A stretch of 55,459 nt of DNA from Acidobacteriota bacterium (GTDB taxonomy: Bacteria; Acidobacteriota; Terriglobia; UBA7540): assembly GCA_902812415.1 (NCBI GenBank), contig CADDZJ010000017.1:1-55459 (forward strand), read 5' to 3'. The notes beneath the pieces are model-generated. The model worked only from the letters and a program-made list of their open reading frames with translations, ran no database searches and was not told where the DNA came from. A program made the translations under genes and the position numbers. Numbering within the stretch: the stretch's first letter is position 1; every line of letters begins with the position of its first letter. This document shows positions 18,083 through 45,809 of this stretch, one piece after another.

Positions 18083-18155
18083 ATGAGTCCTCATGATTTG
18101 AAGCTGCCCGACGCGCGCAACCGCACCGCATCCACGTAATCACGACGGCTGAAAC

Positions 18156-19301
18156 ATGACCGAAAGTAAAAAAGAGAAGAAGAAAAGCTCCTGGCTTGCA
18201 ACGGGAATCCTGTATCTGACAGGGCTTGCGCTGATTGTTGTTGCTTTCATTCTGGTCAATCGAATGAAGGCGATGAAGGCGAAACAGATCACAGCGAATC
18301 TTCGTGAGCGCCAAGCGCTCACACAGGCTGGCCCTCGTGTGGAGGTGGTGACGGTGACCAGCGCGCCCGCTGTTTCATCCATCACTTTGCTTGGGGAAAC
18401 GCATCCCTACCTGGAATCCACCCTGTACGCCAAGGTGAGCGGTTATCTTAAATCGATCTATGTGGACAAGGGCGATACGGTGGAGGCTAACCAGGTGCTG
18501 GCGGTGATCGAGTCTCCGGAAACCGACGCGCAATATCGCGCCGCGGTAATCAACGCCCGGAATCTCAGCGTCATCGCGCAACGCGATCTGAATCTGGTGA
18601 AGCGCGATATGATCGCGCAGCAGGATGCGGACACGGCCGTGGCCAACGCCCGGGTGGCGCAACAGGATGTGGCGAACCTTGCCACACTGAGGTCCTATGA
18701 GACGATTCGCGCGCCATTCGCCGGCAAAATCACCGCTCGTTACGCCGACCCGGGAGCCCTGGTGCAGGCGGCCACAAGCTCACAAACCAGCGCATTGCCG
18801 CTGGTGCGAATCTCTGAGACCGACCGCGAGCGCATTTACATTTATCCTGATCAGAGAGACGCCGCTTACATTCGGGTGGGCGATCCAGCCGAGATCACTG
18901 ATCCCGCAAACCCTGGGGTGCGGATCGCGGCGCGCGTCACGCGGCTGAGCGGCGAGTTCGATCCCGACACGCGCACGATGCTCACTGAAATTGACTTCTA
19001 CAATCGAAGAGGCCTGATCCCGCCGGGAAGTTTTGTTCGAGTCACGCTGAAGCTGCGCAACCATGCGCGCGGCCTTGAGATTCCTGCGGAGGCGCTTGTC
19101 CTGCGCGGCACAAAGACCTTTGTTGCGATTGTGGGACCTGACGATCGGGTCACCTACCGGCCGGTGATAGTGACAAACGATGATGGCGTCCACGTGAGCG
19201 CCAGTTCAGGATTGCGCGTGGGCGAACGGATCGCCCTGAACATTGGAGACAACGTGCCGGAGAATGGTAAGGTGCAGCCCGTTACGGCCTCTTCGAATTG
19301 A
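18156..19301 (+). CDS. HlyD/AcrA-type periplasmic adaptor of the RND pump
   Basis: A 381-residue membrane-fusion protein. A basic start (MTESKKEKKKSSW) precedes one N-terminal membrane helix (about 13-33). The biotinyl-lipoyl half motif (YLKSIYVDKGDTVEANQVLAVIES) comes before a short alpha-hairpin and YETIRAPFAGKITARYADPG, then the beta-barrel. It is anchored by a helix rather than lipidated. It starts 73 bp after the permease stop and ends 13 bp before the TolC-type gene, completing a tripartite pump. Confidence 0.93.
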   Translation: MTESKKEKKKSSWLATGILYLTGLALIVVAFILVNRMKAMKAKQITANLRERQALTQAGPRVEVVTVTSAPAVSSITLLGETHPYLESTLYAKVSGYLKSIYVDKGDTVEANQVLAVIESPETDAQYRAAVINARNLSVIAQRDLNLVKRDMIAQQDADTAVANARVAQQDVANLATLRSYETIRAPFAGKITARYADPGALVQAATSSQTSALPLVRISETDRERIYIYPDQRDAAYIRVGDPAEITDPANPGVRIAARVTRLSGEFDPDTRTMLTEIDFYNRRGLIPPGSFVRVTLKLRNHARGLEIPAEALVLRGTKTFVAIVGPDDRVTYRPVIVTNDDGVHVSASSGLRVGERIALNIGDNVPENGKVQPVTASSN

Positions 19302-19314
19302 TCCGGAGGGAACG

Positions 19315-20628
19315 ATGAGGAAAACGTGTTTTCTGATCTTATCTTTCCTGCTTTTCGGCCCATCACTGCTTGCGGCGAATGCGCACACACCTCTTTCTCT
19401 GGAACAGTGCATTGCCATCGCTCTGAAACAGAGCCCGGATATCGCCGCTGCGCAGGCGTTCGTGGCGGTCGCCAAGGCTAACATGAAGGTTGCGCACGCA
19501 GGATATTTACCGCAAGTGGATGTCGGACAGTCGTATATTCGTCAGACATATAACTACACGGCGAATCCCGGAACGCCTCCAGCTGTCTGGAAACTCTTCT
19601 ACAAAGGTCAATCGAACGCCAACGCGCCCTACTATTATGCCGGCCTGAACCTTTCGCAGACCTTATGGGATTTTGGCCGCACTAAAGGAGCCATCGAATC
19701 AAGCCAGGCCCAATTTCAGGCGGCGGAACATAATCTGCGCTTCGTGCGCGACCAGGTTGACTACAACGTGCGAGCCGCTTATTTCACCGTGATTGCAGCG
19801 CGCGAAACTGTGGAAATTCAAAAAGCGGCAGTAGCTGACGCCCAGCGGCACCTGGACCAGGCGCAGGCGTTTCATCAATACGGCACAGCCCCGAAAATTG
19901 ACGTCACCCGCGAGCAGGTGGCGCTTGCCAATGCCAGACTCGCCTTGAGCCAGGCGGAAGAGAATCTGGAAGTCGATCGGGCTGAACTGGCCACCGCCAT
20001 GGGTCTTCCTGCCGACCAAGCGCCTGAGCCTGTCGGAACTCTTGGTCCAGAACGCTCGCCGGAAAGTTTCACCCAGCTTGTCGCTGAGGCGGAACAAAAT
20101 CGAGCGGACCTTCTGGCCCAGTTCGACCAGGTTCAGGCCGCGCTCGGCAATCTGACAACGGCTAGAGGCAATTTGAAGCCGGATATTTCATTTTCAGCTT
20201 TTCTGGATTTTCGCAACCTGACTCTGCCCCTCGTTTATAACTGGAGTTTGGGGCAACTGCTGGCGCAAAGCATTTTCGCCGGCGGCGCAAACCGCGCGCG
20301 CGTTCGTGCGGCGCAGGCGCAGGAAACGGCGGCGCGAGATAACGTTGAATCTCTCCGCCTTCAGGTTCAGCAGCAGGTGTTCAGCGCTTTTTCCAATCTT
20401 AAAGTCGCCCAGGAACAAATTGGAAATGCGCTTGAAGCGGATCGCTATGCGCGCGAAAACCTGGCGCTCGCGGAAGGGCGCTACAAGGTGGGAGTGGGCA
20501 ATGTCGTGGAACTTGACGACGCCCAGCTTCAGGCTACCAATGCGGCCATTGCCGTGGTGACGGCCCGTTATAATTATCAGATTGCCGGCGCCAAACTTGA
20601 TTTTGTGCTGGGCCGCGGGCCGAAATAA
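19315..20628 (+). CDS. TolC-family outer-membrane efflux channel
   Basis: A 437-residue channel from ATG 19315, chosen because GGAGGG precedes it and a clean signal peptide follows (MRKTCFLILSFLLFGPSLLA). Two OEP repeats of long alternating helices are seen (LSLEQCIAIALKQSPDIAAAQ at the start; AEGRYKVGVGNVVELDDAQ in the second half). Its periplasmic tunnel would dock on the adaptor and permease encoded upstream in the same operon. Confidence 0.94.
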   Translation: MRKTCFLILSFLLFGPSLLAANAHTPLSLEQCIAIALKQSPDIAAAQAFVAVAKANMKVAHAGYLPQVDVGQSYIRQTYNYTANPGTPPAVWKLFYKGQSNANAPYYYAGLNLSQTLWDFGRTKGAIESSQAQFQAAEHNLRFVRDQVDYNVRAAYFTVIAARETVEIQKAAVADAQRHLDQAQAFHQYGTAPKIDVTREQVALANARLALSQAEENLEVDRAELATAMGLPADQAPEPVGTLGPERSPESFTQLVAEAEQNRADLLAQFDQVQAALGNLTTARGNLKPDISFSAFLDFRNLTLPLVYNWSLGQLLAQSIFAGGANRARVRAAQAQETAARDNVESLRLQVQQQVFSAFSNLKVAQEQIGNALEADRYARENLALAEGRYKVGVGNVVELDDAQLQATNAAIAVVTARYNYQIAGAKLDFVLGRGPK

Positions 20629-22500: not shown

Positions 22501-23622
22501 CTAGCGATCGGCGGGGGCAGGCGTAGCCATCACGCGACCGAGCGCTTCCAGGAAGATCTCGTTATCCTCCCGGGTTCCAATGGTCACGCGCAGCGAAGTT
22601 GGAAAATTGTAAACTTTCATGGGTCGCACAATTACATATTCCTGCAGCAGCTTAAGAAAATCTTGCTCGCAATCTCTGCCTGTGTCAATAAGCAAAAAGT
22701 TAGCTACCGAAGGTGTAAATCGGACCCCCATCAGCGTGAGCTCTTCGCTCAGGAACTGCCGCTCCCGCCGATTGATCTCCACCGAGCGCGCCACATGATC
22801 CCGATCCTCCAGCGCCGCCAAAGCCGCCCACTGCGCCGGCCGTGAGGTGTTAAAGGGTGTGCGCACACGATCCAGACTCTCGATCAATTCCGGATGACCC
22901 ATGCCATATCCCAACCTCATCCCTGCCAGCCCGTAAACCTTTGAGAAGGTTCTCAACACCAGAACGTTTTTTCCTTCGCGGACGTAATCCAGCGAATGTG
23001 AATAATCATCCCGCTCGACGTAATCAAAATATGCCTCATCCAGAACCACCAAAACGTGAGCCGAGAGACCCTCCAGAAAGCGGTCGAGCTCACCCGCAGT
23101 AAACATCGTGCCGGTAGGATTATTGGGATTGGCGAGAAAGATCACTTTGGTGCGGGGCGTCACTGCCTGGCGGATACGGACAAGATCCAAGCCATGATCT
23201 CGCAGGGGTACGAGTGTCAGCGTGGCTCCGGTCTCCTGAATTGCCAGTTGATAAATCAAAAAGGAGGATTCTGGCGCAATGCCCTCATCCTCTACCGAGA
23301 GAAATGTCCTTGCCGCAAGTTCAATCAGCTCCGTGGAGCCTGCGCCCAGAATGATCCGGCTCATTTCGAGCTGATGCATCTCAGCCAGCTTCTTTCGCAG
23401 CGCGTAGCCCGCCGAATCGGGGTAGAGATGCACGCGGTCCAGAGACCGGCGGACCGCTTCGATGGCTTTAGGCGAGGGCCCAAAAGGATTTTCGTTGGAG
23501 GCCAGCTTGATGGCGGTGTGGCCCAACTCGCGTTCGACTTCTTCAATCGGCTTGCCGGTAGGATAAGGTCGAATGCGGCTTGCCCAACTTGGAAGCAGAT
23601 CTTGCAGGGGAAATTTCTGCAT
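22501..23622 (-). CDS. hisC: Histidinol-phosphate aminotransferase family (HisC)
   Basis: A 373-residue PLP fold-type I aminotransferase: KLASNENPFGPSPKA at the start, ANPNNPTGT (164-172), VLDEAYFDY with Asp195, and the PLP lysine in RTFSKVYGLAGMRLGYG (Lys228). It converts histidinol phosphate or, in relatives, aromatic amino acids. No other his gene is near, so a second copy serving another pathway is possible. It starts 57 bp after the sulfotransferase stop on the same strand and may be cotranscribed with it. Confidence 0.9.
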   Translation of the reverse strand: MQKFPLQDLLPSWASRIRPYPTGKPIEEVERELGHTAIKLASNENPFGPSPKAIEAVRRSLDRVHLYPDSAGYALRKKLAEMHQLEMSRIILGAGSTELIELAARTFLSVEDEGIAPESSFLIYQLAIQETGATLTLVPLRDHGLDLVRIRQAVTPRTKVIFLANPNNPTGTMFTAGELDRFLEGLSAHVLVVLDEAYFDYVERDDYSHSLDYVREGKNVLVLRTFSKVYGLAGMRLGYGMGHPELIESLDRVRTPFNTSRPAQWAALAALEDRDHVARSVEINRRERQFLSEELTLMGVRFTPSVANFLLIDTGRDCEQDFLKLLQEYVIVRPMKVYNFPTSLRVTIGTREDNEIFLEALGRVMATPAPADR

Positions 23623-23679
23623 GGAAAATCCGGATCAACCCAGCCGCTCTTTAGTGGCTTGTTTTTCGCACTCGGGCGC

Positions 23680-24681
23680 TCAGCTCCTGAAGGCAGCCTC
23701 GTCAACCATCGTGTCGATATTCACCAGCCAGCGCGCCAAAGGCGTGTTGGCTTTCATCCAAAGCTTGGTTCCAAAGAAAGAACGATAGAGCCATTGGTCC
23801 GCCTTGAAGAAAAGCGGCGAGCCTGCCTTCCGCTGCGTCTCAAGCGGATAGCCGAGTTGCTGCAAAAGAGGACCAATTAGGCTTTCAATCAAAGCAAGCT
23901 GTTCGCTGGAGTATCCGCTTTTCCACCGGCCTACGGGATTGAAACGTGGTCCCTTTTCCTCTCCTCCGCTAAATGAAGTATTCGGCTGGCTGACGGTGCC
24001 GACGGCCGCCTGCTGAATGCGGTCGTAATCCAGATCATGTTCAATGAAGCCGCCAATCTTTGCCAGCGTCTCGCGGGGCGAAGTTACCAGATCCTCATAA
24101 TGGATTTCCAGGTAATCGCGGCCTACAGCGCGGCCGTGCTCTCTGCCCTTCCGGACGATCCAATCCCAGTAAAGCGCGGCCACCAGCACACTTCGATCCT
24201 TGTCCCACGGGAAGGGCGTGATGAAACCCTTCTTGCCCAGCGAGAGCGCAACATCGCGTCCGTCCCGGATGGTGTGGATAAACAGGGCGTCAGGGACTGT
24301 GCGCTTGATTTCAGGCAAATAAAGAATTTCCTCGACGCCCACGCACGCCCACCGTTCAACTTTCTGCTGGACGCACATTTCTCCCATCACGATTCTGAGG
24401 AAGTCGCCTCCGTTTCGGCACTCCGCAAGCACTTTGCGCTCAATCGACTGGGCATCAAGAGCTGTGCGCTCGAAATAAGGACTCGCGAGCCACATCTTCA
24501 TCATCTTCTGCCGGTTCTTCAGCACGCTCAGATCACCAAAGCGCGGGACGAGCATATTGAATACCTGAGATGCCGCCCGATAGATGGCGAAGCCGCCCGA
24601 AGAAAGCAGCGTGTGATACAGGAAGTTGTTGCCGGAACGCGGGCTGCCCACAATGAAGACGGGAGCCCTTCTTCTATCCAT
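23680..24681 (-). CDS. PAPS-dependent sulfotransferase
   Basis: A 333-residue protein from ATG 24681, which has AGAGGAA 6 bp upstream (a start 21 bp further up lacks one). The 5'-phosphosulfate loop is FIVGSPRSGNNFLYHTL (PRSGNNF at 14-20; usually PRSGTT) and the 3'-phosphate motif is IRDGRDVALSLGK (139-147), with a later HYEDLVTSPRETLAKI segment. These are the classical cytosolic/Golgi-type sulfotransferase landmarks. It would move sulfate from PAPS to a hydroxyl or amine acceptor. With ATP sulfurylase/APS kinase and a PAP phosphatase upstream, and EPS genes beyond, a polysaccharide or its lipid-linked precursor is the likely acceptor (inference). Confidence 0.85.
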   Translation of the reverse strand: MDRRRAPVFIVGSPRSGNNFLYHTLLSSGGFAIYRAASQVFNMLVPRFGDLSVLKNRQKMMKMWLASPYFERTALDAQSIERKVLAECRNGGDFLRIVMGEMCVQQKVERWACVGVEEILYLPEIKRTVPDALFIHTIRDGRDVALSLGKKGFITPFPWDKDRSVLVAALYWDWIVRKGREHGRAVGRDYLEIHYEDLVTSPRETLAKIGGFIEHDLDYDRIQQAAVGTVSQPNTSFSGGEEKGPRFNPVGRWKSGYSSEQLALIESLIGPLLQQLGYPLETQRKAGSPLFFKADQWLYRSFFGTKLWMKANTPLARWLVNIDTMVDEAAFRS

Positions 24682-24831
24682 GGTGTATTCCTCTTGCGAC
24701 ATGGGGCTTACACATTCTCACTCCAGGGAAGAAGGGGCTGAGATTTAGATAAGCGCAGTGTTTTGCTTCACCGAGACTGGCGGTGAGTGCCCATCCGGAA
24801 GCCCAACAATGGAAATAATTTCAAATTCCAC

Positions 24832-24848
24832 ATATTAAATTTTAATAT
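24832..24848. promoter_or_regulatory. AT palindrome upstream of the sulfotransferase gene
   Basis: ATATTAAA-T-TTTAATAT is a perfect 8-bp dyad with a 1-nt centre about 150 bp upstream of the sulfotransferase start, in an AT-rich island. It could be a regulator or nucleoid-protein site or simply promoter DNA. Confidence 0.4.
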
Positions 24849-25049
24849 ATGAAATTTTAAGATGATTAATTAACATAACCTTAGGGTTCGTTCCGAAAAT
24901 TTTATGTGTGTGATCGATAGGACTTCACCCAGCCCCCTGCCTTATCTTAATTATAACGCCGTTGCTTTATGCGCCACATTCGGCCCTCAAGACAAAGCCA
25001 GAGATAGGCTTTACTTTCTCAAACGTTCTTTCGCCATGTTGCGCGAAAA

Positions 25050-25125
25050 TAGTGAGGTCATTCCCGCGAAGGCGAATCCATGAGCCGAAATACAGGATTC
25101 TTCGCTGTCGCTCAGAATGACGGGT
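25050..25125. repeat. REP-type intergenic repeat
   Basis: The stretch reads ATTCCCGCGAAGGCGAATCC, then an AT-containing centre, then GATTCTTCGCTGTCGCTCAG-AATGACGGG. The right half is a form of the GATTCTTCG...GAATGAC element seen degenerately near 10585-10616 and 13366-13405, and is like repeats common in environmental genomes. Confidence 0.5.
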
Positions 25126-25238
25126 AACCAAGCTCAACATGAAAGTAAAGCCCGGCATATTCCACGCATTCCCGTCACAATACTAGCCTATCTATTAAGG
25201 CTAGCACAATCAAGTCCCAAGCCATCTCCACGCGGGCG

Positions 25239-26057
25239 CTACTGCTTCCGGCTGTTTTTCACAGCCTCCAGGTGAGGCTTTAGCAACGAAATAACTTCCT
25301 CTTTAAGATTCGGGCCGCAGGCGATCAGCCCCGGAAGAAGCGCCGATTCATTGTTAAAAGCTGGCGGTGAAAGATCCAAGGCGCTCACAAACGCTCCGGC
25401 TGCCTCGACCAGGGCAACCCCTGCCGCAACATCCCATTCGTGCTTTGGAGTCAGAGTCCAGGTTGCATCAGCCAGCCCTGCCGCCACTCGCGCAAGCTTA
25501 TAAGCAACCGACCCCATCGGGCGGATCGTAAAGGAATCGCCCTGGAACCTCTCCCACTCCCCTCGCTTAACTTCGCTACGGCTGGCCAGAACCTCAGCGC
25601 CGGCGAGCGTCTTTCGCTGGCTGGGCAAGGCCCGGCTTCCATTGTAGGTAAATCCTGTCTCGATCGAGCCGAGGAACGTTTCGCGGGTCGCCGGATTCGT
25701 AATGCCTCCGGCCACTACCGAACCTTTCTCAATCAGGGCGATTGAGACACACCACTCCGGTATTCCGGCGACAAACTCGCGTGTCCCATCGAGCGGATCC
25801 ACAATCCAGACACGGTCCTTTTCCAGGCGCGAAAGGTCATCTGCGCTCTCCTCGGAAAACCATCCCTCGCCATCCCGAAGCAAAACCTCTTGCAGCTTAT
25901 GGTTCACGGCGCGGTCCGCCTCGGTCACCGGATCATCACCGACTTTATAATCGGCTCGCACGGCTCCCGGCACAAACGGCTGGAGCGCTACGACCGCAGC
26001 TTCAAGCGCTTCCTGAATGCGCGCGAGCGCTTCACTTAAATTTCCGTCATTCTTCAT
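25239..26057 (-). CDS. cysQ: CysQ-like 3'(2'),5'-bisphosphate nucleotidase (inositol monophosphatase family)
   Basis: A 272-residue Mg-dependent, Li-sensitive-type phosphatase. Metal-site motifs are FSEES (Glu69-Glu70), WIVDPLDGTREF (Asp87, Asp90) and HEWDVAAG (Asp209). The REFVAGIPEWCVSIAL continuation is closer to CysQ (PAP phosphatase) than to SuhB. It would convert 3'-phosphoadenosine 5'-phosphate, the sulfotransferase by-product, to AMP. Lying between the PAPS-making enzyme and the sulfotransferase on the same strand, it fits this use well. An inositol phosphatase activity cannot be excluded. Confidence 0.82.
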   Translation of the reverse strand: MKNDGNLSEALARIQEALEAAVVALQPFVPGAVRADYKVGDDPVTEADRAVNHKLQEVLLRDGEGWFSEESADDLSRLEKDRVWIVDPLDGTREFVAGIPEWCVSIALIEKGSVVAGGITNPATRETFLGSIETGFTYNGSRALPSQRKTLAGAEVLASRSEVKRGEWERFQGDSFTIRPMGSVAYKLARVAAGLADATWTLTPKHEWDVAAGVALVEAAGAFVSALDLSPPAFNNESALLPGLIACGPNLKEEVISLLKPHLEAVKNSRKQ

Positions 26058-26113
26058 CCTATAATCTCTCCGTAATCTCGATCAAAACCTGCGCGGGCCG
26101 CGATCAAGACGCG

Positions 26114-26887
26114 TTAAATTCCCAGCATTCTGATCCCCGTTAAAAGCAATAACGCGCAAAGGGTTCTTTTGAGCCATGGGCTCGGCAGGCGATTGCTGAT
26201 TCTCACGCCAATCAAGGACCCGGGCACAGAGCCTACCAGAAGCGCGGCAACGAGCCACGGGTCTACATTGCCGAAATTAAGCTGAAGCAGACCCGTGAAT
26301 CCCGTCAGAGCAATCGCATGGACGACGTCCGTGCCAACGAGCGCCACGACCGGGCGCTGGACGAACAAGAGCAGCAGGACGATCACGATGCTTCCCGATC
26401 CCACGGAACTCATTCCCACCAGAATACCGGCCAGCAGTCCGATTCCCACAAGCTTCGGAATGATCTGCCGCGGCGGCCGCCTTTGCAGGTTGAAAAAGCG
26501 CTCGATCCTTCCCTGGAACAACAGCAGAAAAGGAATGCACACCAAAAGCGCGCCAATGAAGCGAACCAGAAACGAATTGATTTCGCTTCCCCAGGCTGCC
26601 CGCAGCTCATTCAGGATCAGAACTCCAATCAAAGCTCCGGGCAAACTGCCGCATGCCAGATAGGCCGCCAGACGCTTGCTGACGTTCCCAGCCCGCCAAT
26701 GAAAGAACCCCGCGCCAATTTTGGTGAAGGCATTAAACGCCGCATCAGACCCCACCGCAATCAGGGGCGGCACTTTCAGCCCGAAGATCAGTATCGGAAG
26801 CAGGATCACTCCCCCTCCGACCCCGGTCAGCCCCACGAGGATTCCCACCACCAGCCCGATCAGAACGTGTACCCAAGTCAGGAACAT
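26114..26887 (-). CDS. TauE/SafE-family anion permease
   Basis: A membrane protein of 257 residues with about eight helices and two TauE/SafE half repeats (LVGLTGVGGGVILLPILI in the first; LVGMSSVGSGSIVIVLLLL in the second). Family members move sulfite, sulfonates, sulfoacetate or other organic anions. Here it is flanked by ATP sulfurylase/APS kinase and CysQ, so sulfate or sulfite supply or efflux is the reasonable guess. ATG 26887 is preferred to the adjacent upstream TTG; no strong ribosome binding site is visible. Confidence 0.85.
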   Translation of the reverse strand: MFLTWVHVLIGLVVGILVGLTGVGGGVILLPILIFGLKVPPLIAVGSDAAFNAFTKIGAGFFHWRAGNVSKRLAAYLACGSLPGALIGVLILNELRAAWGSEINSFLVRFIGALLVCIPFLLLFQGRIERFFNLQRRPPRQIIPKLVGIGLLAGILVGMSSVGSGSIVIVLLLLFVQRPVVALVGTDVVHAIALTGFTGLLQLNFGNVDPWLVAALLVGSVPGSLIGVRISNRLPSPWLKRTLCALLLLTGIRMLGI

Positions 26888-27012
26888 CAAGTTTCAGGAG
26901 GCCAGGGAGCGCAGCCATTTTCCAGTCTGATAATCGAAGACAGCATCAGCCGGGCGGCGCCCGGTGAGGCCGCCCAAGCCCAAATCCCATCGTCAAATTA
27001 ACCCATCTCGGA

Positions 27013-28755
27013 TCAATCGCCCGGGCCGTTCTGGCTGTTTGCGCCGATGTAACCTTCGCGCTCAAGGTGCAGGAAGATTTCCTGCGCCGCTTCCTCAGGA
27101 GTCACTTCAGCCGTATCAATCACCACGGCTGCGTCATCCGGCGGCTCATAGGGGTCGCTGATGCCGGTAAACTGCGGAACCAGTCCTGCCCGCGCTTTGG
27201 CGTAAAGCCCTTTCCGATCCCGCGCTTCGCAGGTATCAAGCGGCGTTGAAAGGTAGACCAGGATAAAGCCGCCGTGCGGCTGGATCATAGCCCGCACTTC
27301 CTTGCGGATGGAATCGTAAGGCGCAATCGGAGCGCAAATAGCAATGCCTCCATTCTTGGTGATTTCCGAAGCGACAAAACCGATGCGGCGAATGTTGATG
27401 TCGCGGTGCTCCTTGGAAAAGCCAAGCTCCGAGGAAAGGTGCTTGCGGACAATATCGCCATCCAGCAACGTCACGGGCCGTCCGCCCATTTCCAGAAATT
27501 TCACTCGCAGAACGTTGGCAATGGTTGACTTTCCCGAGCCGGAGAGACCGGTGAAGAACACCGTAAAACCCTGGCGATGCCGCGGCAGGTAGGAGCGTTG
27601 CAACTCGCGCGCGACTTCGGGGAAGGTGAACCATGAGGGCAGTTCGCGGCCTTCGGCAAGCCGTCGTCGAAGCTCCGTGCCCGAGATATTGAGCACTCTT
27701 GCGCCGTTCGGAACTTCACCCTCAGGAACGTAAGTGTCCTGGTCTTCGAGATAAACCAGCATCTGGAATGGCACCATCGTCACCCCAATTTCATTCTGAA
27801 GCGATCGCAGAAGTTCCTGCGCTTCGTAGGGGCCGTAAAAAGGCTTGCCGTCCCTGTCTTTTCCGGGGCCTGCATGATCGCGTCCGACGATGAAATGCGT
27901 GCAGCCGTGATTTTTGCGAATCAGGGCGTGCCACACGGCCTCACGCGGCCCTCCCATGCGCATGGCCAGAGGCAGCAACGCCAGCCGGACGGTATCCTTA
28001 GGGTACTTGGGAAGAAGTGCCTGATAGCAACGAACGCGAACATAGTACTCCACGTCCCCCGGTTTGGTCATGCCTACCGACGGATGAATGAGTAAATTCG
28101 CCTCGACTCTTTTCCCGGCGCGCATTGTAAGTTCCTGATGAGCGCGGTGCATGGGATTTCGGGTTTGAAATGCGACCACCCGCCGCCATCCTAATCTTGT
28201 AAACTCCGCGCGAAGCTCGGCGGGAGTCAGCCGCAACGATCGGAAATCGTAATGCGCAGGAAGGCGGATACCCTCCAGCCTGCCTCCCACATACCAGGGA
28301 TTGGCCTGGCGCAGCAGGTAAGCCACTCCGGGATGATCCGTGCTGGTGGTTCGGAACACGGCCTCGGCTTCCGCCTCGCGATCAGGCTTCCAAACCTCTT
28401 CCACGTGGAGGGCGGCCAGCATCACGCCTTCCGGGTCCCGCAAGGCGACCATGCTTCCCTGACGCAGTTTCCTGGCGAATTCCTCGGTCACATCCAGCGT
28501 GATGGGCATTGGCCAGACGAGCCCGTTCTTCAGGCGCATATTGTGGCACGTGCCCTCGTAGTCCTCACGCGTCATAAACCCGCGCAGCGGAGAGAAACCG
28601 CCGCTCAGAAGCAATTCCACGTCGCAAAGCTGACGCGCTGTAAGATCCCAGGAAGGCCAATCCCGCGATTGGGCCTTAAGCTCGGCAGCGCGCTCTGAAC
28701 TGACTAAAAGATTCACTAACTCCCCGCCGTGAGGCGGAATCAGGTGTTGACTCAT
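27013..28755 (-). CDS. sat/cysC: Bifunctional sulfate adenylyltransferase/adenylylsulfate kinase
   Basis: A 580-residue fusion from ATG 28755; longer upstream frames encode unrelated low-quality sequence. The ATP sulfurylase part (1-390) has FQTRNPMHRAH (197-206) and GRDHAGPGKD (291-300). The APS kinase part (395-580) has the P-loop FFTGLSGSGKST (401-411), LLDGDIVRKHL, RDINIRRIGFVA and the lid region IAPYDSIRKEVR. It makes PAPS from sulfate and two ATP. No PAPS or sulfite reductase gene is in the window, so PAPS is more likely used for sulfation. It starts 127 bp after the last glycosyltransferase of the EPS series. Confidence 0.96.
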   Translation of the reverse strand: MSQHLIPPHGGELVNLLVSSERAAELKAQSRDWPSWDLTARQLCDVELLLSGGFSPLRGFMTREDYEGTCHNMRLKNGLVWPMPITLDVTEEFARKLRQGSMVALRDPEGVMLAALHVEEVWKPDREAEAEAVFRTTSTDHPGVAYLLRQANPWYVGGRLEGIRLPAHYDFRSLRLTPAELRAEFTRLGWRRVVAFQTRNPMHRAHQELTMRAGKRVEANLLIHPSVGMTKPGDVEYYVRVRCYQALLPKYPKDTVRLALLPLAMRMGGPREAVWHALIRKNHGCTHFIVGRDHAGPGKDRDGKPFYGPYEAQELLRSLQNEIGVTMVPFQMLVYLEDQDTYVPEGEVPNGARVLNISGTELRRRLAEGRELPSWFTFPEVARELQRSYLPRHRQGFTVFFTGLSGSGKSTIANVLRVKFLEMGGRPVTLLDGDIVRKHLSSELGFSKEHRDINIRRIGFVASEITKNGGIAICAPIAPYDSIRKEVRAMIQPHGGFILVYLSTPLDTCEARDRKGLYAKARAGLVPQFTGISDPYEPPDDAAVVIDTAEVTPEEAAQEIFLHLEREGYIGANSQNGPGD

Positions 28756-28882
28756 GCAAACGTAAAACCCCTTTCTATAAGGATTGCAGATGAAAAAATC
28801 TTTGGCCGCTCCCCTCGCGCAACAACATACAAATGTCGGCCGCTCTCCTAAAAGAAGTAAGCAGGTCGAAGAGCCGGGCGGC

Positions 28883-29929
28883 TCACCTTCGCAACAGCTC
28901 CTGATAGAGCGCCAGGACTGCGGCCATATTCTCCTCGCCCGAAGGAACCGCCGGAGGCGGATTACGACATTTTTTCTTGCGAAGGCACGCCTCAATCTCC
29001 GCATGCAGCGCCTCCAGGCTTGAGGGCGGAATCAGAGTGACTCCCTCCGGACGCATGCCGTTATCGGTTGCAATCACCGGAGTGCCCAGTTGTAAAGCCT
29101 CCCGAATGCTGATTGCATCGCCATCGTAGAGCGTGGTGCGGAGCAGCAGGGAAGCTCGTCGAATAGCCAGAAGTGTGGCGTCGTGTGGAACATCGCCACA
29201 AAGCAGAATATGCTCGCTTCCCGGCTGCTCGGAAACCATGCGGCGCAGTTCATATTCCAGGCTTCCCGAGCCGACAATCGCCAGGCCCGCCTGCGGAAAG
29301 TTTTCCCTCATCATGCCCAGCGCGCGAAACTGTTGCGGCAAATCGTATTCCGGCTCAAGCCCGCTGACGCTGAGAAGGACCGGATCGTGCGACCGGAAAA
29401 ACGCTTCCATCTCCGGCGGCAGAGCAGTTCCAGATGGAATCCGAACTGGCGCATAGGGAAGAATCAATCGCAACCGTTGCTCGGGAACCCCGCAGCGCTG
29501 ATAGAAATCGATAATTTCCTGATTGACGCCGATCAGCCGATCGAATCGGCGAAGCACAAACCCTCGAAATGTTCGAGGGTGCGCCCGGCGGCCCTGAGGA
29601 GAGGAAGGATAGCCTCCGGAATGAAAGGTAAATACCGTGGCTTTGCCTGGGGCCGAGCAGCATACCAGCCCGAGCGCCAGCAACCTCCGACTCAGATCTC
29701 CTCCCACATGGAGATGAGCAACATCATAGGGCAGCCGGAAAAGAAGCCGAACCACCTGCGCGGCAGATTGTGGATAGTAGACCTCATCGGAATCAGGCCG
29801 TCGATGCCGGGTAAGATTAATGACCTTATAAGGAACTCCTTGCTCCTTCAAATAGCGGCATAGCGCCAGGATATGGCTTTGGACGCCTCCGTGGGGAGGC
29901 GGATAAGCTCCCAATAACAGAATTCTCAT
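28883..29929 (-). CDS. GT4-family glycosyltransferase
   Basis: A 348-residue GT-B enzyme from ATG 29929, whose ATGA overlaps the stop of the preceding GT4 gene. It begins MRILLLGAYPPPHGGVQSHI, has the mid-protein donor-domain strand PVLLSVSGLEPEYDLPQQF, and ends with a retaining-GT4 E-X7-E-like motif in which the first Glu is Asp (DGDAISIRE) followed by ALQLGTPVIATDNG. It adds a sugar to the lipid-linked EPS repeat unit in the cytosol; the donor is unknown. Confidence 0.88.
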   Translation of the reverse strand: MRILLLGAYPPPHGGVQSHILALCRYLKEQGVPYKVINLTRHRRPDSDEVYYPQSAAQVVRLLFRLPYDVAHLHVGGDLSRRLLALGLVCCSAPGKATVFTFHSGGYPSSPQGRRAHPRTFRGFVLRRFDRLIGVNQEIIDFYQRCGVPEQRLRLILPYAPVRIPSGTALPPEMEAFFRSHDPVLLSVSGLEPEYDLPQQFRALGMMRENFPQAGLAIVGSGSLEYELRRMVSEQPGSEHILLCGDVPHDATLLAIRRASLLLRTTLYDGDAISIREALQLGTPVIATDNGMRPEGVTLIPPSSLEALHAEIEACLRKKKCRNPPPAVPSGEENMAAVLALYQELLRR

Positions 29930-31083
29930 GGTGGTACAGAGACGGCATGCCGCGCGCTCTGCCGCCATCCCTTCTCCGCCAGCAAATCCCGATAAAGTTG
30001 TTCGTACTGACGCCGAACCGAATCCAGCGAGAAGTGAGCTCGGGCAATCTCACGCGCTCTCCGGCCCCATTGCTTCCGCAGGTCAGGATCGACGAGAAGC
30101 CGCTCCAGGGCGTCGGCCAGACTGATTTCATCATTGGGCGGAATCAGAAAGCCTGTCTCCTTTTCGCGCACCAGATCGCAATTTCCTCCCACCCGCGTTG
30201 CCACAACCGGAAGTCCGGCAGCCATCGATTCCAGAATGGAATTTGAGAGGCTCTCTGAAAAAGAGGGCATCACCGAAATATCCAAAGAGGCCAGCACAGC
30301 CGCGATATCGCGCCGGTCGCCAAGAAAACGCGTCTGACGCTCCAGACCCAGGTTCTTCGCCATCTTTTCGAGCTCCGGACGAAGGGGCCCGTCACCCACC
30401 AGTACGAACTCCAGGTTTGGAAATTTCGGCGCCAGCCGCGCCGCCGCATGGAGAAATCCGGGATAGTTTTTGACGGGATTATTCATGCGGGCGATCATGC
30501 CCACGCGCAATACGTTCGGGCTTCGAGGCAAAGCAGGCGCAGTCTCCGCAAAAGCCTCAGCGGGAAGCCCGTTCGGGATGATGGCTATTTTGCGCTTCGG
30601 CAGACCGTGTTGCAGAAGAAAATCTGCGGCCGCCCGCGAATTCGCAACCACGCGATCGCAGAACCGAAAGGCAACGTTCTGCGCCTTGAAGCGCATGGGC
30701 GTCAGCAGGTCGCCGAGTTGCCGATGACTTCCAATCACGACCGGAATGCCAGCCCAACGCGCTGCGGGGATCAGCATGAGGTTTGTATAAAAATCGAAAG
30801 CCTGGGCAATCGCAATTCCACGAGCCCGAAGATGGCCTGCCAATTCTCTTCGCGAACGCCAGGACTGAAGGCCGTACAAGCTGCCCCCGACGGGAAATTC
30901 CTCGATGTTCTCGATGCCGTCCTGAAACGCGCCGATTCGCCCTAAGCATCCAACCTCCACCCGGAAGGCTTGCCGGTCCAAAGCCCCGGCCAAAATCGCA
31001 AATTGACGCTCGCTGCCCCCGGTCTCAAAGGTGTTGGTCATCAGAAAGACCGCAGGGCATTGGGAATGATGCTCGTTCTCCAT
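29926..31083 (-). CDS. GT4-family glycosyltransferase, EPS/exosortase locus type
   Basis: A 385-residue GT-B enzyme: MTNTFETGGSERQFAILAGAL is the N-terminal glycine-rich loop usual in sugar transferases of PEP-CTERM EPS loci. RVGMIARMNNPVKNYPGFLHAA starts the donor domain, and ESLSNSILESMAAGLPVVATRVGGN holds the complete E-X7-E site. It abuts the methyltransferase gene with no gap and overlaps the next GT4 by 4 bp, so the three are one operon. Confidence 0.9.
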   Translation of the reverse strand: MENEHHSQCPAVFLMTNTFETGGSERQFAILAGALDRQAFRVEVGCLGRIGAFQDGIENIEEFPVGGSLYGLQSWRSRRELAGHLRARGIAIAQAFDFYTNLMLIPAARWAGIPVVIGSHRQLGDLLTPMRFKAQNVAFRFCDRVVANSRAAADFLLQHGLPKRKIAIIPNGLPAEAFAETAPALPRSPNVLRVGMIARMNNPVKNYPGFLHAAARLAPKFPNLEFVLVGDGPLRPELEKMAKNLGLERQTRFLGDRRDIAAVLASLDISVMPSFSESLSNSILESMAAGLPVVATRVGGNCDLVREKETGFLIPPNDEISLADALERLLVDPDLRKQWGRRAREIARAHFSLDSVRRQYEQLYRDLLAEKGWRQSARHAVSVPP

Positions 31084-31935
31084 TTAGCTTTGTCTGCGAA
31101 AGAGGAATTCGTTCGTGCCCAGCGTATTCGTCACGCGGAGATTGACCATCTCCATGCCGAGATCGCGGGTGCAAAAGCGAAAGATCTCATCGGCAGAAGC
31201 GAATTCGTAAGGATAACCGCCCAGCCAGTCGCGGACGTCGGTCCAATAACTCATTCCGCGGCCCTGAGAGTATTTCGTGAACAGCGAGACAGGATTCTCG
31301 AATGAAGCAAGTTTCCGCAAAAGCCCGTTGCGCACAAAATGGGTGACTTCGAGCAGGAGCTTTCCGGGCCGTGACGAACGATTGTAAAGCTTCTTCACCT
31401 TGAGCCAGAATTCAGAGCCTTTGCGTCCATAGACTTTATTGTAAATCGAAAGATAGAAGAGACCGTTTGCTTCCACCAGGCCGGCTGCGTTGCGGATGGC
31501 CTTCCACATGTATCCCGTGTGATGCAACGATCCCCAGGCATAAACAATGTCGGCTCTTCCGAGTCCTGCAATCCACGAGTCGTCCAGAATCGATCCGTGC
31601 AGCACCTGCCAATGTTCCGGATTGCCGACCCGTCGTCGCAGTTCCTCGCAGGAGCGAACCGAGAACGGGTCGACATCCAGGCTGACGATCTTTTTAGCTC
31701 CCAGGCGGAAAGCCCCCAGCGAGAAAAGCCCGCTTCCGCAGCCGACATCCAGAAAACTCCGTCCGCGCAGGTCCGATAGCTCCAGAAATTCGGTCAACGA
31801 GTTGATCGCAATCCGCTCACGCTCAGGGTTCAAGGCCCGCTCAACGAACCGTTGCCAGTTCTTTCCGAAGGAAAAGGTGACTTTTTCCCGAGGCCCCTGA
31901 GTTGTTTCCGTTCGATCGAGTGTGGTTTCTGCCAT
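31084..31935 (-). CDS. Class I SAM-dependent methyltransferase
   Basis: A 283-residue methyltransferase: motif I SFLDVGCGSGLFSLGAF (about residues 60-76), IVSLDVDPFSVRSC for the acidic ribose contact, and IVYAWGSLHHTGYMW as motif IV. The N-terminal FSFGKNWQRFVERAL and an extended C-terminal lid suggest a small-molecule or sugar substrate. In this setting it probably O-methylates an EPS sugar or lipid-linked intermediate. Confidence 0.85.
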   Translation of the reverse strand: MAETTLDRTETTQGPREKVTFSFGKNWQRFVERALNPERERIAINSLTEFLELSDLRGRSFLDVGCGSGLFSLGAFRLGAKKIVSLDVDPFSVRSCEELRRRVGNPEHWQVLHGSILDDSWIAGLGRADIVYAWGSLHHTGYMWKAIRNAAGLVEANGLFYLSIYNKVYGRKGSEFWLKVKKLYNRSSRPGKLLLEVTHFVRNGLLRKLASFENPVSLFTKYSQGRGMSYWTDVRDWLGGYPYEFASADEIFRFCTRDLGMEMVNLRVTNTLGTNEFLFRRQS

Positions 31936-32013
31936 AACAAAAATGATGGATCAGGTTTCTGAAAAAATTCTTGGAATCCCCTGGCAAGCCAGGCGCTTGC
32001 GCCGCCCTTAACC

Positions 32014-33978
32014 TCAGCCTGTCAGGGTCAGCAGGCTTTGCCTTTGCGCCGGCTGTGAGCTGTTCAGCGCATAAGGCGGCGGTCCGGGTTCGCTTGAAAA
32101 ATCCGACTCAAGGAAATTCCGATGCCAAAGCTCCAACACCAGCAAACGCCAGATTCGGCTTGAGCGATCGCGCCGCCCGGTGAAATGCTCGTCCAGAGTT
32201 TCCTGAATGGCGCTTGGGTTGAAATAGCCGCGCTGAAGAGTTCGAGGCTCAAGGAGCAATCGCGCCAACTCCCCCCGAAACTCTTTCCTCATCCAATGCA
32301 CGAGAGGCAGCGCGAAACCCTGCTTGGGACGATAAATCACATCGTGCGGCACGCCCAGGCGCTCGGCCAATCGCTTCAGAATATACTTCTGGTCTCCGTG
32401 GCGAAACTTCCATTGCGCTGGCAGGCGGCTGACAAACTCCACAAAGGGGTGATCCAGCAGGGGCACGCGCGCCTCAAGCGACCAGGCCATGCTCATGCGG
32501 TCCACTTTGGTGAGAATGTCACCCGGGAGATAAGCCTTGGTATCGAGATAAAGGAGGCGGCTCAAAGGGTCCTTGGCGGGACCGCGTTCAAAATAATCCT
32601 GGAACTGGGCCAGCGGAGAGGGAACTTTGGCCGCCCAATCCAGAAACTCGCGCGAAAAGACGGAATTTTCCCGGGAATGAACCGGCAACCAGGAAATGTA
32701 GTCCAAATAGCGGTCACGCAGAGGCATGGACCGGTTATAGATGAAGTTCCGGCCATAAGTCGCGGAAGGCAAATGATGAAAAATCCGCTGCCGATACCAG
32801 CGCCCCAAAAATGGCGGAATATAATCGCCTAAGGTTTTGCGGAGAATGAATCCGTAACGCTCATAGCCCGCAAAAAGCTCATCTCCGCCGTCTCCCGACA
32901 GGGCGACGGTGACATGCCGGCGCGCAAGACGGCAGATGTAATAGGTCGGGATCATGGAGGAATCGCCAAACGGCTCCTCCAGAGATCGCGTCAGCGCGTC
33001 GAGCGCCTCACCCAGGCGAGGTTCCACCATCAACTCGTGGTGCTCTGTCCCAAAACGCTGAGCAACCTCGCGGGCATAGGGCGCCTCGTTAAAATCCTGC
33101 TTTGAAAAGCCGATGGAGAAAGTCTTGACGGCCGAAGAACTGGCGCGCGCCATCAGCGCGACCACGATGGAAGAATCCACGCCGCCGCTCAGCAGAGCCC
33201 CGAGCGGCACTTCGGAAATCAGCCGAATGCGCACGGCTTCCGCCAGCCGGTCTTCCAATTCCTCCAGGCATTCCTCTTCTGAAGCCGGCTGATGAACGCC
33301 GTAAGAAGGCAAATCCCAATACTGACGAATTTGTATCCCGCCGTTTGACCACTCGAGTAAATGCCCCGGAGGCAATTTATGAATTTTCTGAAAAGCCGTG
33401 TCTGGATCAGGAATGTAGCCAAAATGAAAATATTTCAGCAGGCTTTCCCGCTTGATCTCTTTCAGTTCCGGGGCTGCGGCCAGGATCGCCTTGATCTCGG
33501 AGCCGAATAGAAGTCTGCCGTCCGCGCAGGCGTAATGCAACGGCTTGATGCCCAGCCGATCGCGCGCCAGCAGCAGGCGCCGCCTCTTGTCATCAAAAAC
33601 CGCGAAGGCAAACATGCCTCGCAATTGATCAACGCACTTAGCGCCGCGTTCTTCGTAAAGATGCGCGATCACTTCGGTATCGGTGTGGGTATAAAAGCGA
33701 TGGCCTTTGCTTTCAAGCTCGGAGCGCAGTTCGGGGAAGTTGTAGATCTCTCCGTTGAAGACAACCCAGACGGTCTCATCCTCGTTGTGAATGGGCTGGC
33801 GGCCGCCGGCCACGTCAATAATGCTCAGCCTCCGCATTCCGAGGCCGACGGGACCCTTGACGTAGAGCCCTTCATCATCCGGCCCACGATGCACCATGGC
33901 CTGGCACATGCAATGGATCGCCTGCGGATCGATTGCGGCGCTTGCATCAGAGTTTATGATTCCGGCAATCCCACACAT
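32014..33978 (-). CDS. asnB: AsnB-type glutamine-dependent amidotransferase of the EPS locus
   Basis: A 654-residue protein. The start is ATG 33978 (not the TTG before it), because the product must begin Met-Cys-Gly for Cys2 to become the N-terminal nucleophile (MCGIAGIINS). The glutaminase domain includes VHRGPDDEG and VVFNGEIYNF. The synthetase domain has the PP-loop LLSGGVDSSIVVAL and ALSGDGGDELFAGYERY. Homologues in exosortase-linked EPS loci are thought to amidate uronic acids or other precursors rather than serve asparagine supply. That role is inferred from context. Confidence 0.9.
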   Translation of the reverse strand: MCGIAGIINSDASAAIDPQAIHCMCQAMVHRGPDDEGLYVKGPVGLGMRRLSIIDVAGGRQPIHNEDETVWVVFNGEIYNFPELRSELESKGHRFYTHTDTEVIAHLYEERGAKCVDQLRGMFAFAVFDDKRRRLLLARDRLGIKPLHYACADGRLLFGSEIKAILAAAPELKEIKRESLLKYFHFGYIPDPDTAFQKIHKLPPGHLLEWSNGGIQIRQYWDLPSYGVHQPASEEECLEELEDRLAEAVRIRLISEVPLGALLSGGVDSSIVVALMARASSSAVKTFSIGFSKQDFNEAPYAREVAQRFGTEHHELMVEPRLGEALDALTRSLEEPFGDSSMIPTYYICRLARRHVTVALSGDGGDELFAGYERYGFILRKTLGDYIPPFLGRWYRQRIFHHLPSATYGRNFIYNRSMPLRDRYLDYISWLPVHSRENSVFSREFLDWAAKVPSPLAQFQDYFERGPAKDPLSRLLYLDTKAYLPGDILTKVDRMSMAWSLEARVPLLDHPFVEFVSRLPAQWKFRHGDQKYILKRLAERLGVPHDVIYRPKQGFALPLVHWMRKEFRGELARLLLEPRTLQRGYFNPSAIQETLDEHFTGRRDRSSRIWRLLVLELWHRNFLESDFSSEPGPPPYALNSSQPAQRQSLLTLTG

Positions 33979-34003
33979 CAAAAATTCTCACAAAGGCTAT
34001 CGC

Positions 34004-34999
34004 TCATGGAATGATGACATCCTGGATGAAGCTCTTCACCCCGTAGGCGTATTGGTGATAATCGCCCCGCAGCAACGGACGCATAGCGCCCAGGGCGCGC
34101 CGGCCGCGGCCCATGCTCTTTAATCTGGCTCTCTCCATCTCAAACTGAGAATACCGCTTGCAGAGGTCGCGCAGATTGAGAAACCGCTCGGAGCCAGCCG
34201 AAGCAAATCCCTGACGCTCAAAATTCATCAGGCGTTCATACATCTCTTCCCAGCGCCGGCATCGCACTTCATATCCGGCCAGGCTCGACCACTTCCAGCT
34301 CATTCGCACCTGACCCCACAATCCGGAGTCCAGGTCGGGGTCCGCGCGATAATTACCTCCGTGCCGTCGATAGTACATCAGCGGGCGGTCGAGCATCTTC
34401 ACTTCGCCCAGGGCGTAGGCCAGCGCCGCAATCCAGCGATCGAATACCCACGTCTCCGCGAACGGCAGGATGAGCGGTTTTAAAACCGACCGGAACGATA
34501 TGACACAGCCATTCACCCAGATGCTTTTCAGAAAATGATCGGCGCCCATCCCCGCATGCACCCAGCTTTTTTCCCGCCGGCCGTTTAACGTGAAGCCCAG
34601 AGGTCGCGAGGACTCGTCGATCAACTCAGCGTCGCTTGCAACCATCGTAGCTTCCGAATTCTCGGCATAGGCAGCGGTCACAATGGCAATTTTATCCTTG
34701 AACCAGACATCGTCGTCATTGCTCAAGAAGATGATGTCGCCGGTCGTTTGACTCACAGCATTTTCAAAATTTCTCCTCACGCCCAATTTTTCGGGATTTT
34801 GCACCAGCCGAAGGGCCGGGTTGTTTTGCCCGATGCGCCGGATGATCTCGATGGTTCGATCGGTCGAGACATCATCGCATATCACCACCTCGTCGGGCGG
34901 GCGCGTCTGATTCAGGATGCTTTCAAGCTGCGCCTCAACCAGCCTTTCGGCATTGTGGGTGCACATCGCAACTGAGATTTTAAAGTTCCCGTCTTCCAT
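34004..34999 (-). CDS. GT2-family glycosyltransferase (tandem paralogue A)
   Basis: A 331-residue GT-A enzyme from ATG 34999, which follows AGGAGGGGG. Motifs: KISVAMCTHNAERLVEAQLES, PDEVVICDDVSTDRT and IIFLSNDDDVWFKDK with the metal-binding acidic cluster, then MYYRRHGGNY. The C-terminus RGDYHQYAYGVKSFIQDVIIP closely matches that of the next gene upstream, indicating duplication. It probably adds one residue of the EPS repeat unit. Confidence 0.9.
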   Translation of the reverse strand: MEDGNFKISVAMCTHNAERLVEAQLESILNQTRPPDEVVICDDVSTDRTIEIIRRIGQNNPALRLVQNPEKLGVRRNFENAVSQTTGDIIFLSNDDDVWFKDKIAIVTAAYAENSEATMVASDAELIDESSRPLGFTLNGRREKSWVHAGMGADHFLKSIWVNGCVISFRSVLKPLILPFAETWVFDRWIAALAYALGEVKMLDRPLMYYRRHGGNYRADPDLDSGLWGQVRMSWKWSSLAGYEVRCRRWEEMYERLMNFERQGFASAGSERFLNLRDLCKRYSQFEMERARLKSMGRGRRALGAMRPLLRGDYHQYAYGVKSFIQDVIIP

Positions 35000-35102
35000 C
35001 CCCCTCCTATTTCGGATCAACTCCAATTGAGAAAATTAGCCGTAAGGAATCTGCGGCGCATGCTCCCTCTTGCATCAGGAAAGCCGCGTGGCCTGCCGGA
35101 AC

Positions 35103-36101: not shown

Positions 36102-36176
36102 CTCTCGGTTCTCCGCCGCCTTCTGAAGCGCAGTGAGCATTTTTATCACGCCTGGCGCGGCCTTGCGGGGCCTCGC

Positions 36177-37511: not shown

Positions 37512-37544
37512 AAATCTCTCAAACTTCCAGCGGCTGGATCACAG

Positions 37545-40033: not shown

Positions 40034-40039
40034 GGCTGG

Positions 40040-40981: not shown

Positions 40982-41007
40982 AAAGTTCCTTTAAATGCGA
41001 CTCGCTG

Positions 41008-41931: not shown

Positions 41932-41947
41932 GTTGCGAGTCCTTCGG

Positions 41948-43501: not shown

Positions 43502-43584
43502 AGCAACCTTTCCTTCTGCGACGATCTATTCAAAAATTACAGCCACGCCGCTTCGAACGCGGGATCGGTAAAAGCGCCCCGTCT

Positions 43585-45018: not shown

Positions 45019-45043
45019 ATTATGAGACCCAGCGCAACAATTC

Positions 45044-45673: not shown

Positions 45674-45809
45674 GGTCAGATCTCCTCACAGTTTGTTGAA
45701 AACCTTGGGATACCTCATTGAGCGGGACCTTTCTCTGCCACCCGCGCGATTCACGGATGGCAGCGTCAAACTGCCCGCTACCCCTTTTCAACAGATCACC
45801 CACAGTCCT

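Follow-up and report, generated by a model that had tools for sequence, protein, structure and literature searches.

Within the 55,459-nucleotide stretch of DNA analysed here (the window; contig C17, CADDZJ010000017.1, of an Acidobacteriota bacterium assembly of 4.84 Mb in 261 contigs, 95.9% complete), genes for sulfate activation and sulfotransfer lie directly after the genes of an exosortase-associated exopolysaccharide (EPS) locus. This arrangement raises the question of whether these genes serve to sulfate the EPS, to sulfate some other acceptor, or to assimilate sulfate for cysteine synthesis. We conclude that four genes form a module that supplies the sulfuryl donor 3'-phosphoadenosine 5'-phosphosulfate (PAPS), transfers sulfate and disposes of the by-product 3'-phosphoadenosine 5'-phosphate (PAP), and that its acceptor is most probably the adjoining exosortase EPS; we give this reading a probability of about 0.62. 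The evidence for it consists of the identity of the genes by family, the conservation of their linkage, and an association between kinases of adenosine 5'-phosphosulfate (APS) and sulfotransferases among related genomes.

A sulfate activation and sulfotransfer module beside EPS genes

We scanned 30 window proteins, encoded between positions 13689 and 52189, against Pfam. The features of the module and of the EPS locus were as follows.

23680-24702, minus strand: PAPS-dependent sulfotransferase (Sulfotransfer_3, PF13469, 67.4 bits, cut-off 27)
24703-25238, minus strand: 536-bp gap between the CysQ-like and sulfotransferase genes, with an AT-rich stretch ahead of the sulfotransferase
25239-26057, minus strand: CysQ-like phosphatase, a member of the inositol-monophosphatase superfamily (PF00459, 155.2 bits)
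26114-26890, minus strand: TauE/SafE-type permease (PF01925, 155.7 bits, cut-off 32.6)
27013-28755, minus strand: Sat-CysC, a fused ATP sulfurylase/APS kinase of 580 amino acids (PF14306, PF01747 and PF01583)
28883-29968, minus strand: final glycosyltransferase of the EPS set (GT4; PF13439/PF00534), preceding the sulfur module
29926-46805, minus strand: XrtA-like EPS genes, encoding a GT4, a methyltransferase, an amidotransferase, GT2 glycosyltransferases, Wzy, a phosphoglycosyltransferase, a tyrosine autokinase, an ATPase, Wzz, Wza, a sigma-54 activator and one protein without a Pfam match
47345-48241, plus strand: exosortase (XrtA/XrtD-like; PF09721, 250 bits)
48238-48891, plus strand: EpsI/DUF3485 exosortase partner (PF11984, 178.5 bits)

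The Pfam scan also counted a tetratricopeptide repeat (TPR) protein in the XrtA-like EPS set. The initial annotation had placed four sulfur and sulfotransfer genes in order on the EPS strand after the last glycosyltransferase, and the Pfam and NCBIfam families bore this out, with the sulfotransferase set off from the others: 127 bp separate the end of the glycosyltransferase gene from Sat-CysC, and the spacings within the set are 122 bp, 56 bp and then 536 bp. Sat-CysC scored 923 bits on NCBIfam NF004040 (cut-off 669) with complete PF01747 and PF01583 domains, and its P-loop GLSGSGKST and the motif QTRNPMHRAH were conserved in all nine aligned sequences. A longer ATG open reading frame (ORF) of 663 amino acids was rejected as over-extended, since the alignment of relatives begins at 28755. 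The TauE/SafE-type permease is a probable carrier of sulfate or a sulfur oxyanion.

The 536-bp gap contained no ORF longer than 63 amino acids wholly inside it, and thus the sulfotransferase may form a separate transcription unit, for which the gap may hold the promoter. No sigma-70-like match was found in 23500-29100, where promoter and terminator scans did not rise above chance. A 24-base stretch of the gap, considered as a dispersed repeat, was discarded, being single-copy in the window and recurring among 270 fetched loci only in an overlapping locus of the same genome.

The EPS locus resembled XrtA/PEP-CTERM systems in that its exosortase, ATPase, tyrosine autokinase and amidotransferase were found by TIGR03109, TIGR03015, TIGR03018 and TIGR03108, but all four models scored under their curated cut-offs (exosortase 205.6 against 208 bits, ATPase 295.7 against 324.5, amidotransferase 690.1 against 816.9), and the sulfur module is an addition to such systems. 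The exosortase passed the generic model TIGR02602 (205.2 bits, cut-off 105.55). A simple pattern for PEP-CTERM-like tails yielded no candidate in the window.

Recurrence of the linkage in other genomes

We evaluated the linkage in a family sample of 40 genomes, comprising the window's own genome (G000), 38 of the same family and one of the same order. The fused Sat-CysC was encoded in 11 of the 40, and in five of these 11 (G000, G017, G008, G010 and G004) Sat-CysC and the CysQ-like gene adjoined XrtA-like EPS genes. Genomes G017, G008 and G010, from three further genera, had a glycosyltransferase followed by Sat-CysC and CysQ, as in the window, and the order in G004 was TyrK-Sat-CysC-CysQ; an exosortase lay on the same contig as the linked Sat-CysC in G000, G017 and G008. 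A CysQ-like gene adjoined Sat-CysC in all 11 carriers, and one with at least 53% identity did so in 19 of a named set of 80 Sat-CysC loci. The permease was less constant: a TauE homologue stood at the linked loci of G017 and G010 and was not seen at those of G008 or G004, and, overall, it was found beside Sat-CysC in 5 of the 11 family carriers, in 11 of the 80 named loci, and in two genomes of another family, G158 and G283, and was not seen in the rest. The Sat-CysC of G038 lay in another glycan locus, with an adjoining sulfotransferase and a sulfatase-family gene. The Sat-CysC contigs of G014 and G035 were too short for EPS linkage to be judged.

A sulfotransferase can also stand in an XrtA-like locus apart from Sat-CysC. 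In G024 the XrtA-like locus on contig C188 had a PF00685 sulfotransferase between its GT4b and amidotransferase genes; the exosortase lay on contig C120, which ends in the ATPase gene, and Sat-CysC lay on a third contig. No sulfotransferase was found in the fetched extent of the XrtA-like loci of five genomes without the fused enzyme (G006, G007, G012, G019 and G031).

We then extended the comparison to a phylum sample of 396 genomes, of which at least 74 passed the NF004040 cut-off. An exosortase match was present in 34 of the 74 listed Sat-CysC genomes, and a long one (E below 1e-40) in 13. In 5 of these 13 (G000, G158, G283, G434 and G413), the long exosortase lay on the same contig as Sat-CysC and at most 50 kb from it, when about 0.3 was expected. 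With the window's own genome excluded, 4 of 12 remained within 50 kb (0.27 expected; simulated P 9e-5) and 2 of 12 within 10 kb (P 1e-3), and limits of 10, 20, 50 and 100 kb gave P values of 0.001, 0.005, 9e-5 and 0.001; these values overstate the case, because the sampled genomes share ancestry and the choice of 50 kb followed inspection of the distances, and, like the Fisher P values below, they take no account of relatedness or assembly breaks.

Genomes G158 and G283, from another family of the class and 100% and 99% complete, each encoded a sulfotransferase 49-50% identical to that of the window, located directly after the GT4b homologue of the XrtA-like EPS locus in G283 and about 7 kb after it in G158. 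In both, Sat-CysC, TauE and CysQ were on the same contig, 40-46 kb from the exosortase, and in G158 two PF00685 sulfotransferases followed CysQ. The sulfotransferase gene of the window stands at the edge of a Wzy-type EPS cluster, after the PAPS genes, and its G283 homologue stands inside one. In G434, Sat-CysC was 5.6 kb from the exosortase, with PF13469 genes on both sides. Matches to PF13469 occurred within 12 kb at 20 or more of 77 places, a count drawn mainly from Sat-CysC contigs and without a matched background. Outside the phylum, a Planctomycetota groundwater metagenome-assembled genome (L159; JACPHJ010000093.1, positions 329-21714) held EPS and sulfation genes in a single locus of about 21 kb, with an exosortase-EpsI fusion, a phosphoglycosyltransferase, Wza, a tyrosine kinase, Wzx, Wzy and a glycosyltransferase beside Sat-CysC, a PF00459 phosphatase and two sulfotransferases. 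This locus is an example of the module from a second phylum. It also holds a radical SAM and a pectate-lyase-like protein.

The sulfated EPS proposed by the initial annotation gains support from this recurrence, more frequent than chance would give, of the module at EPS loci in other genera, in other families and in one planctomycete locus, and it is because the linkage recurs that we infer the EPS to be the acceptor. The locus is real and recurrent, and is probably a sulfated-EPS system, a variant of already known sulfated-EPS clusters. Whether it represents a wider class, namely recurrent exosortase-linked sulfated-EPS loci that bring together PAPS synthesis, a phosphatase for PAP, sulfotransferases and, in many cases, a permease, and that occur in Acidobacteriota and Planctomycetota at least, with the APS kinase branch of the acidobacterial family devoted to extracellular sulfation while assimilation uses APS directly, we regard as an even bet.

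Two further observations concern EPS genes in this family. In the G010 Sat-CysC/EPS locus, a heparinase II/III-like protein (L074:12642-15275), about 3 kb from CysQ, hints at a uronic-acid-containing or sulfated polymer. The window's own genome encodes a second exosortase (L191; G000:C2:152182-152934), accompanied by a further EpsI, TPR protein, phosphoglycosyltransferase, Wzz and tyrosine kinase; this set shares only 22-41% identity with that of the window.

APS kinase follows sulfotransferases, not CysH

Sat-CysC was the sole match to PF01747 (ATP sulfurylase) in its own genome, in which, at 96% completeness, a second sulfurylase could be missing. PF01507 matched once, in a CysH encoded on contig C15 with another TauE next to it. 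A CysD would be expected to match PF01507 as well, so this genome shows no sign of a CysDN-type sulfurylase. The cysteine pattern CC..CxxC, characteristic of APS reductases that carry an iron-sulfur cluster, was found in 29 of 30 CysH loci, that of the own genome included, with the ORF chosen by similarity to the own CysH. With a sole ATP sulfurylase and an APS-reductase-type CysH on another contig, Sat-CysC must also feed cysteine synthesis. The absence of PAPS and sulfite reductases, asserted in the initial annotation, held among the 30 scanned window proteins; the wider genome does contain the CysH (sulfite reductase was not searched for genome-wide). Its further claim that the locus has its own sulfate activation stood as regards PAPS synthesis and PAP removal for sulfation, and was overstated in that the only genomic ATP sulfurylase found also serves cysteine synthesis.

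The distribution of APS kinase in the 40 family genomes bears on these two roles. All 11 genomes with the fused enzyme also had CysH. A non-fused Sat lay within about 2.2 kb of CysH in 11 relatives (G007, G009, G013, G015, G016, G018, G023, G026, G030, G031 and G037), and in 10 of these 11 a strong APS kinase match was absent. A strong APS kinase match was present in 14 genomes and a PF13469 sulfotransferase in 13, with both in 11 and neither in 24; this count leaves out weak matches (E about 1e-3: a second match in G000, and those in G001 and G021) and keeps a fragment in G002 and a match with two stops in G006. The sulfotransferase was thus found in 11 of 14 APS kinase carriers versus 2 of 26 others (Fisher P 1e-5), and in 10 of 11 fused Sat-CysC genomes versus 3 of 29 others (P 3e-6). 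CysH was found in 12 of 14 APS kinase carriers versus 21 of 26 others (P 1), showing no association. The exceptions were G002, G006 and G035, with APS kinase and no PF13469, and G001 and G036, with the opposite pattern; the G001 assembly is 77% complete, and the CysQ-sulfotransferase pair in it begins at a contig end. Because APS kinase tracks sulfotransferases and not CysH, PAPS in this family is best explained by sulfation. We conclude that the PAPS made by the module probably serves sulfation, and that the module probably serves both sulfation and assimilation, by different branches.

Other forms of these enzymes were observed in the family. In G002, of the same genus as the window's genome, only fragments matching the APS kinase portion of Sat-CysC were found, at 68-71% identity (L196 and L197; G002:C108:4251-4574 and G002:C140:67641-67760); these are perhaps remnants or reflect contig breaks. 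Loci L044-L050 (G006, G034, G022, G029, G019, G002 and G032) encode a Sat of another type, which shares 38-42% identity with the window Sat domain and has no CysH match on its contig. In G015, which has sat-cysH assimilation, a free-standing APS kinase lay beside a PF00685 sulfotransferase, an AsnB-like protein and a glycosyltransferase (L192; G015:C14, 5195-10731), which is the link between PAPS and sulfation in another form.

Motifs, predicted structure and relatives of the sulfotransferase

The sulfotransferase of the window contains PRSGNN near residue 21 and IRDGRDVALS near residue 145, which we take to be the 5' and 3' phosphosulfate-binding (PAPS) motifs, and R22, S23, G24 and R146 were invariant in nine sequences. 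Structure prediction gave a sulfotransferase fold: the AlphaFold2 model (mean predicted local distance difference test score 70.6, predicted template modelling score 0.74, from a thin alignment of five rows) matched a tyrosylprotein sulfotransferase best among PDB entries (E 2.4e-10, template modelling (TM) score 0.54, 16% identity; tyrosine sulfotransferases overall 16-19%), followed by bacterial polyketide and mycobacterial sulfotransferases and, lower, by heparan 3-O-sulfotransferase. The predicted model sets the fold and not the acceptor.

The surroundings of sulfotransferases in the family were richer in glycan genes than those of a control. Homologues of glycosyltransferases, Wzy, Wza, phosphoglycosyltransferase or AsnB lay within 10 kb in 17 of 34 sulfotransferase regions, the window included (one region, L244, had no profile match above threshold, and several contigs were only a few kb long), compared with 20 control regions around non-fused sat, in which there was no sulfotransferase and one weak AsnB match. 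When this one sulfotransferase sequence served as the query, a scan of genome contigs detected no relatives. Two more sulfotransferases are encoded in the window's own genome, at G000:C131:8257-9228 (L189) and at G000:C5:16709-17416 (L190, beside a phosphoglycosyltransferase), and a weak partial PF00685 match was present on its contig C87.

Weighing the acceptor

Several observations weigh against an EPS-specific sulfation module. In 40 of the 74 listed Sat-CysC genomes there was no exosortase match, and hence the module is not restricted to exosortase systems; it resembles a supply for sulfation in general, one frequently situated at EPS loci. Profiles found a sulfotransferase within the fetched flank of only 10 of the 80 named loci, and in G413, where Sat-CysC is 7 kb from the exosortase, there was no PF13469 in the genome among the matches listed. 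As for the sulfur genes at equivalent EPS loci of relatives, the co-occurrence expected by the initial annotation was seen in the five of 11 family carriers named above; it failed in G003, and no sulfotransferase was recognised at the other four linked loci (G017, G008, G010 and G004) by profiles derived from PF13469 and PF00685 sequences in the fetched loci; such profiles could miss distant families. A 392-amino-acid ORF between Wzy and AsnB in G017 had no Pfam match even at E 0.5 and might be a sulfotransferase of an unrecognised type. Sat-CysC lay away from XrtA-like EPS genes in G003, G024 and G027. In a 15-row tree, Sat-linked and EPS-linked sulfotransferases were scattered (5 changes, against a shuffled mean of 5.2), which suggests that the linkage was probably gained or lost repeatedly. 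Finally, the CysQ-like protein missed the TIGR01331 CysQ equivalog cut-off (105.4 against 228.8 bits) and scored 106.2 bits on the HisN model, likewise under its cut-off. We consider it a probable PAP phosphatase because of its pairing with Sat-CysC, that is, by context and not by score. A histidinol-phosphatase reading, raised by a HisC-like neighbour and the equal HisN and CysQ scores, was rejected given the conserved pairing with Sat-CysC; a HisC query matched no family region and, weakly, one of the 80 named loci (L160).

An ordinary assimilation set might stand beside the EPS locus by chance, with PAPS feeding CysH and CysQ clearing the resulting PAP. Its best support is that Sat-CysC is the sole ATP sulfurylase found, that CysH occurs in the own genome and in every fused-enzyme genome of the family, and that about 6.5 kb separate CysH and Sat-CysC in G024, another point that counts against sulfation as the role of the module. 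We nonetheless think this quite unlikely, given the APS-reductase-type cysteines at 29 of 30 CysH loci, the want of a strong APS kinase in 10 of 11 sat-cysH relatives, the tracking of sulfotransferases by APS kinase, and the position of a sulfotransferase beside CysQ or Sat in G000, G001, G003, G038 and G158. A purely assimilatory operon was rejected, as APS kinase does not follow CysH across the 40 genomes.

PAPS might instead be made for a sulfotransferase that modifies a protein tyrosine, a lipid or a small molecule rather than the XrtA-like EPS. The closest solved structures are tyrosylprotein sulfotransferases, so that a protein acceptor is possible, and the gene is separated by 536 bp from CysQ. 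Moreover, in G003, of the same genus, the closest homologue shares an 18.5-kb contig (C167), free of EPS homologues, with Sat-CysC and CysQ, and a full EPS locus without the module lies on C20; the G001 contig is too short to tell. We nevertheless judge another acceptor unlikely, since G283 and G158 have homologues at 49-50% identity within or next to their XrtA-like EPS loci, and since half of the 34 sulfotransferase regions have glycan-assembly genes nearby, against one weak AsnB match in 20 controls. The separate contigs in G003 would also suit a third possibility, that the linkage is a chance neighbourhood or an assembly artefact of the window contig, but similar junctions in three further genera (G017, G008 and G010), the TyrK-Sat-CysC-CysQ order in G004, and the further loci in G158, G283, G434 and L159 make this very improbable, and a chimeric contig was dismissed on the strength of the junctions in other genera. 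The adjoining exosortase EPS remains the acceptor that we prefer.

Proposed pathway

In the pathway that we infer, which extends to the substrate of each protein, the specificity for PAP, sulfate transport and the EPS as acceptor, sulfate would be taken up via the TauE-type permease, converted to APS by Sat and then to PAPS by the fused APS kinase, as expected from their families. The sulfotransferase, again by family, would transfer the sulfuryl group from PAPS to its acceptor, and the CysQ-like phosphatase, as its pairing with Sat-CysC suggests, would clear the inhibitory PAP. The acceptor would most probably be the polysaccharide, or its lipid-linked repeat unit, of the adjoining XrtA-like Wzy-type exosortase EPS locus. 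The Sat domain would also be the sole APS source found for cysteine synthesis via the APS-reductase-type CysH encoded elsewhere, and one shared pool of PAPS would probably supply at least two other sulfotransferases elsewhere in the genome, those of L189 and L190.

Relation to known systems and significance

Bacterial sulfated polysaccharides were called exclusive to cyanobacteria in one 2026 paper (PMC13390465), and said to be limited to cyanobacteria and a few marine bacteria in another (PMC13125312). The synechan (xss) cluster of Synechocystis PCC 6803 is, like the locus proposed here, a Wzx/Wzy-type EPS cluster with sulfotransferases, of which it has two, and its product contains sulfate (PMC8205485); unlike the window it is cyanobacterial, and the main text of that paper mentions neither 'PAPS' nor 'exosortase'. 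Closer in gene content is wps-1 of Actinoplanes missouriensis, a Wzx/Wzy EPS cluster with two sulfotransferases whose product its authors predicted to be sulfated, and which adjoins AMIS_7390, encoding an ATP sulfurylase/APS kinase (PMC13390465). Deletion of AMIS_7390 led to a severe sporangium defect, and its transcription is reported to be controlled differently from that of wps-1; the accessible parts of the paper draw no link to PAPS for sulfation. In contrast to the window, this is an actinomycete system for which those parts describe no exosortase or CysQ. A supply of PAPS for EPS sulfation would account for the otherwise unexplained sporangium defect, as far as it is described there. 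In Pontiella sulfatireligans, a sulfated glycosaminoglycan-like exopolymer was detected and a sulfotransferase stands in a glycosyltransferase cluster (PMC7356697). This organism, like that of the window, is non-cyanobacterial and has a sulfotransferase with glycosyltransferase genes, but it belongs to the marine Kiritimatiellae, and the available text describes no PAPS module or exosortase. No paper on an acidobacterial exosortase together with exopolysaccharide was found in the literature searched; as this mostly excluded subscription papers, we make no claim of priority.

If our reading is correct, sulfated EPS would be widened to other phyla (Acidobacteriota and a groundwater planctomycete), new sulfotransferases would become available for the production of heparin-like polymers, and exosortase EPS systems, which are poorly understood, would gain a chemical clue. 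A culturable strain with the arrangement of G158 or G283 would make the claim testable.

Neighbouring genes

Elsewhere in the window, a resistance-nodulation-division (RND) efflux set, consisting of an AcrB-like pump, a membrane fusion protein and an outer membrane channel (14786-20628, plus strand), lies beside a LysR regulator (13689-14609, minus strand) and is unrelated to the module.

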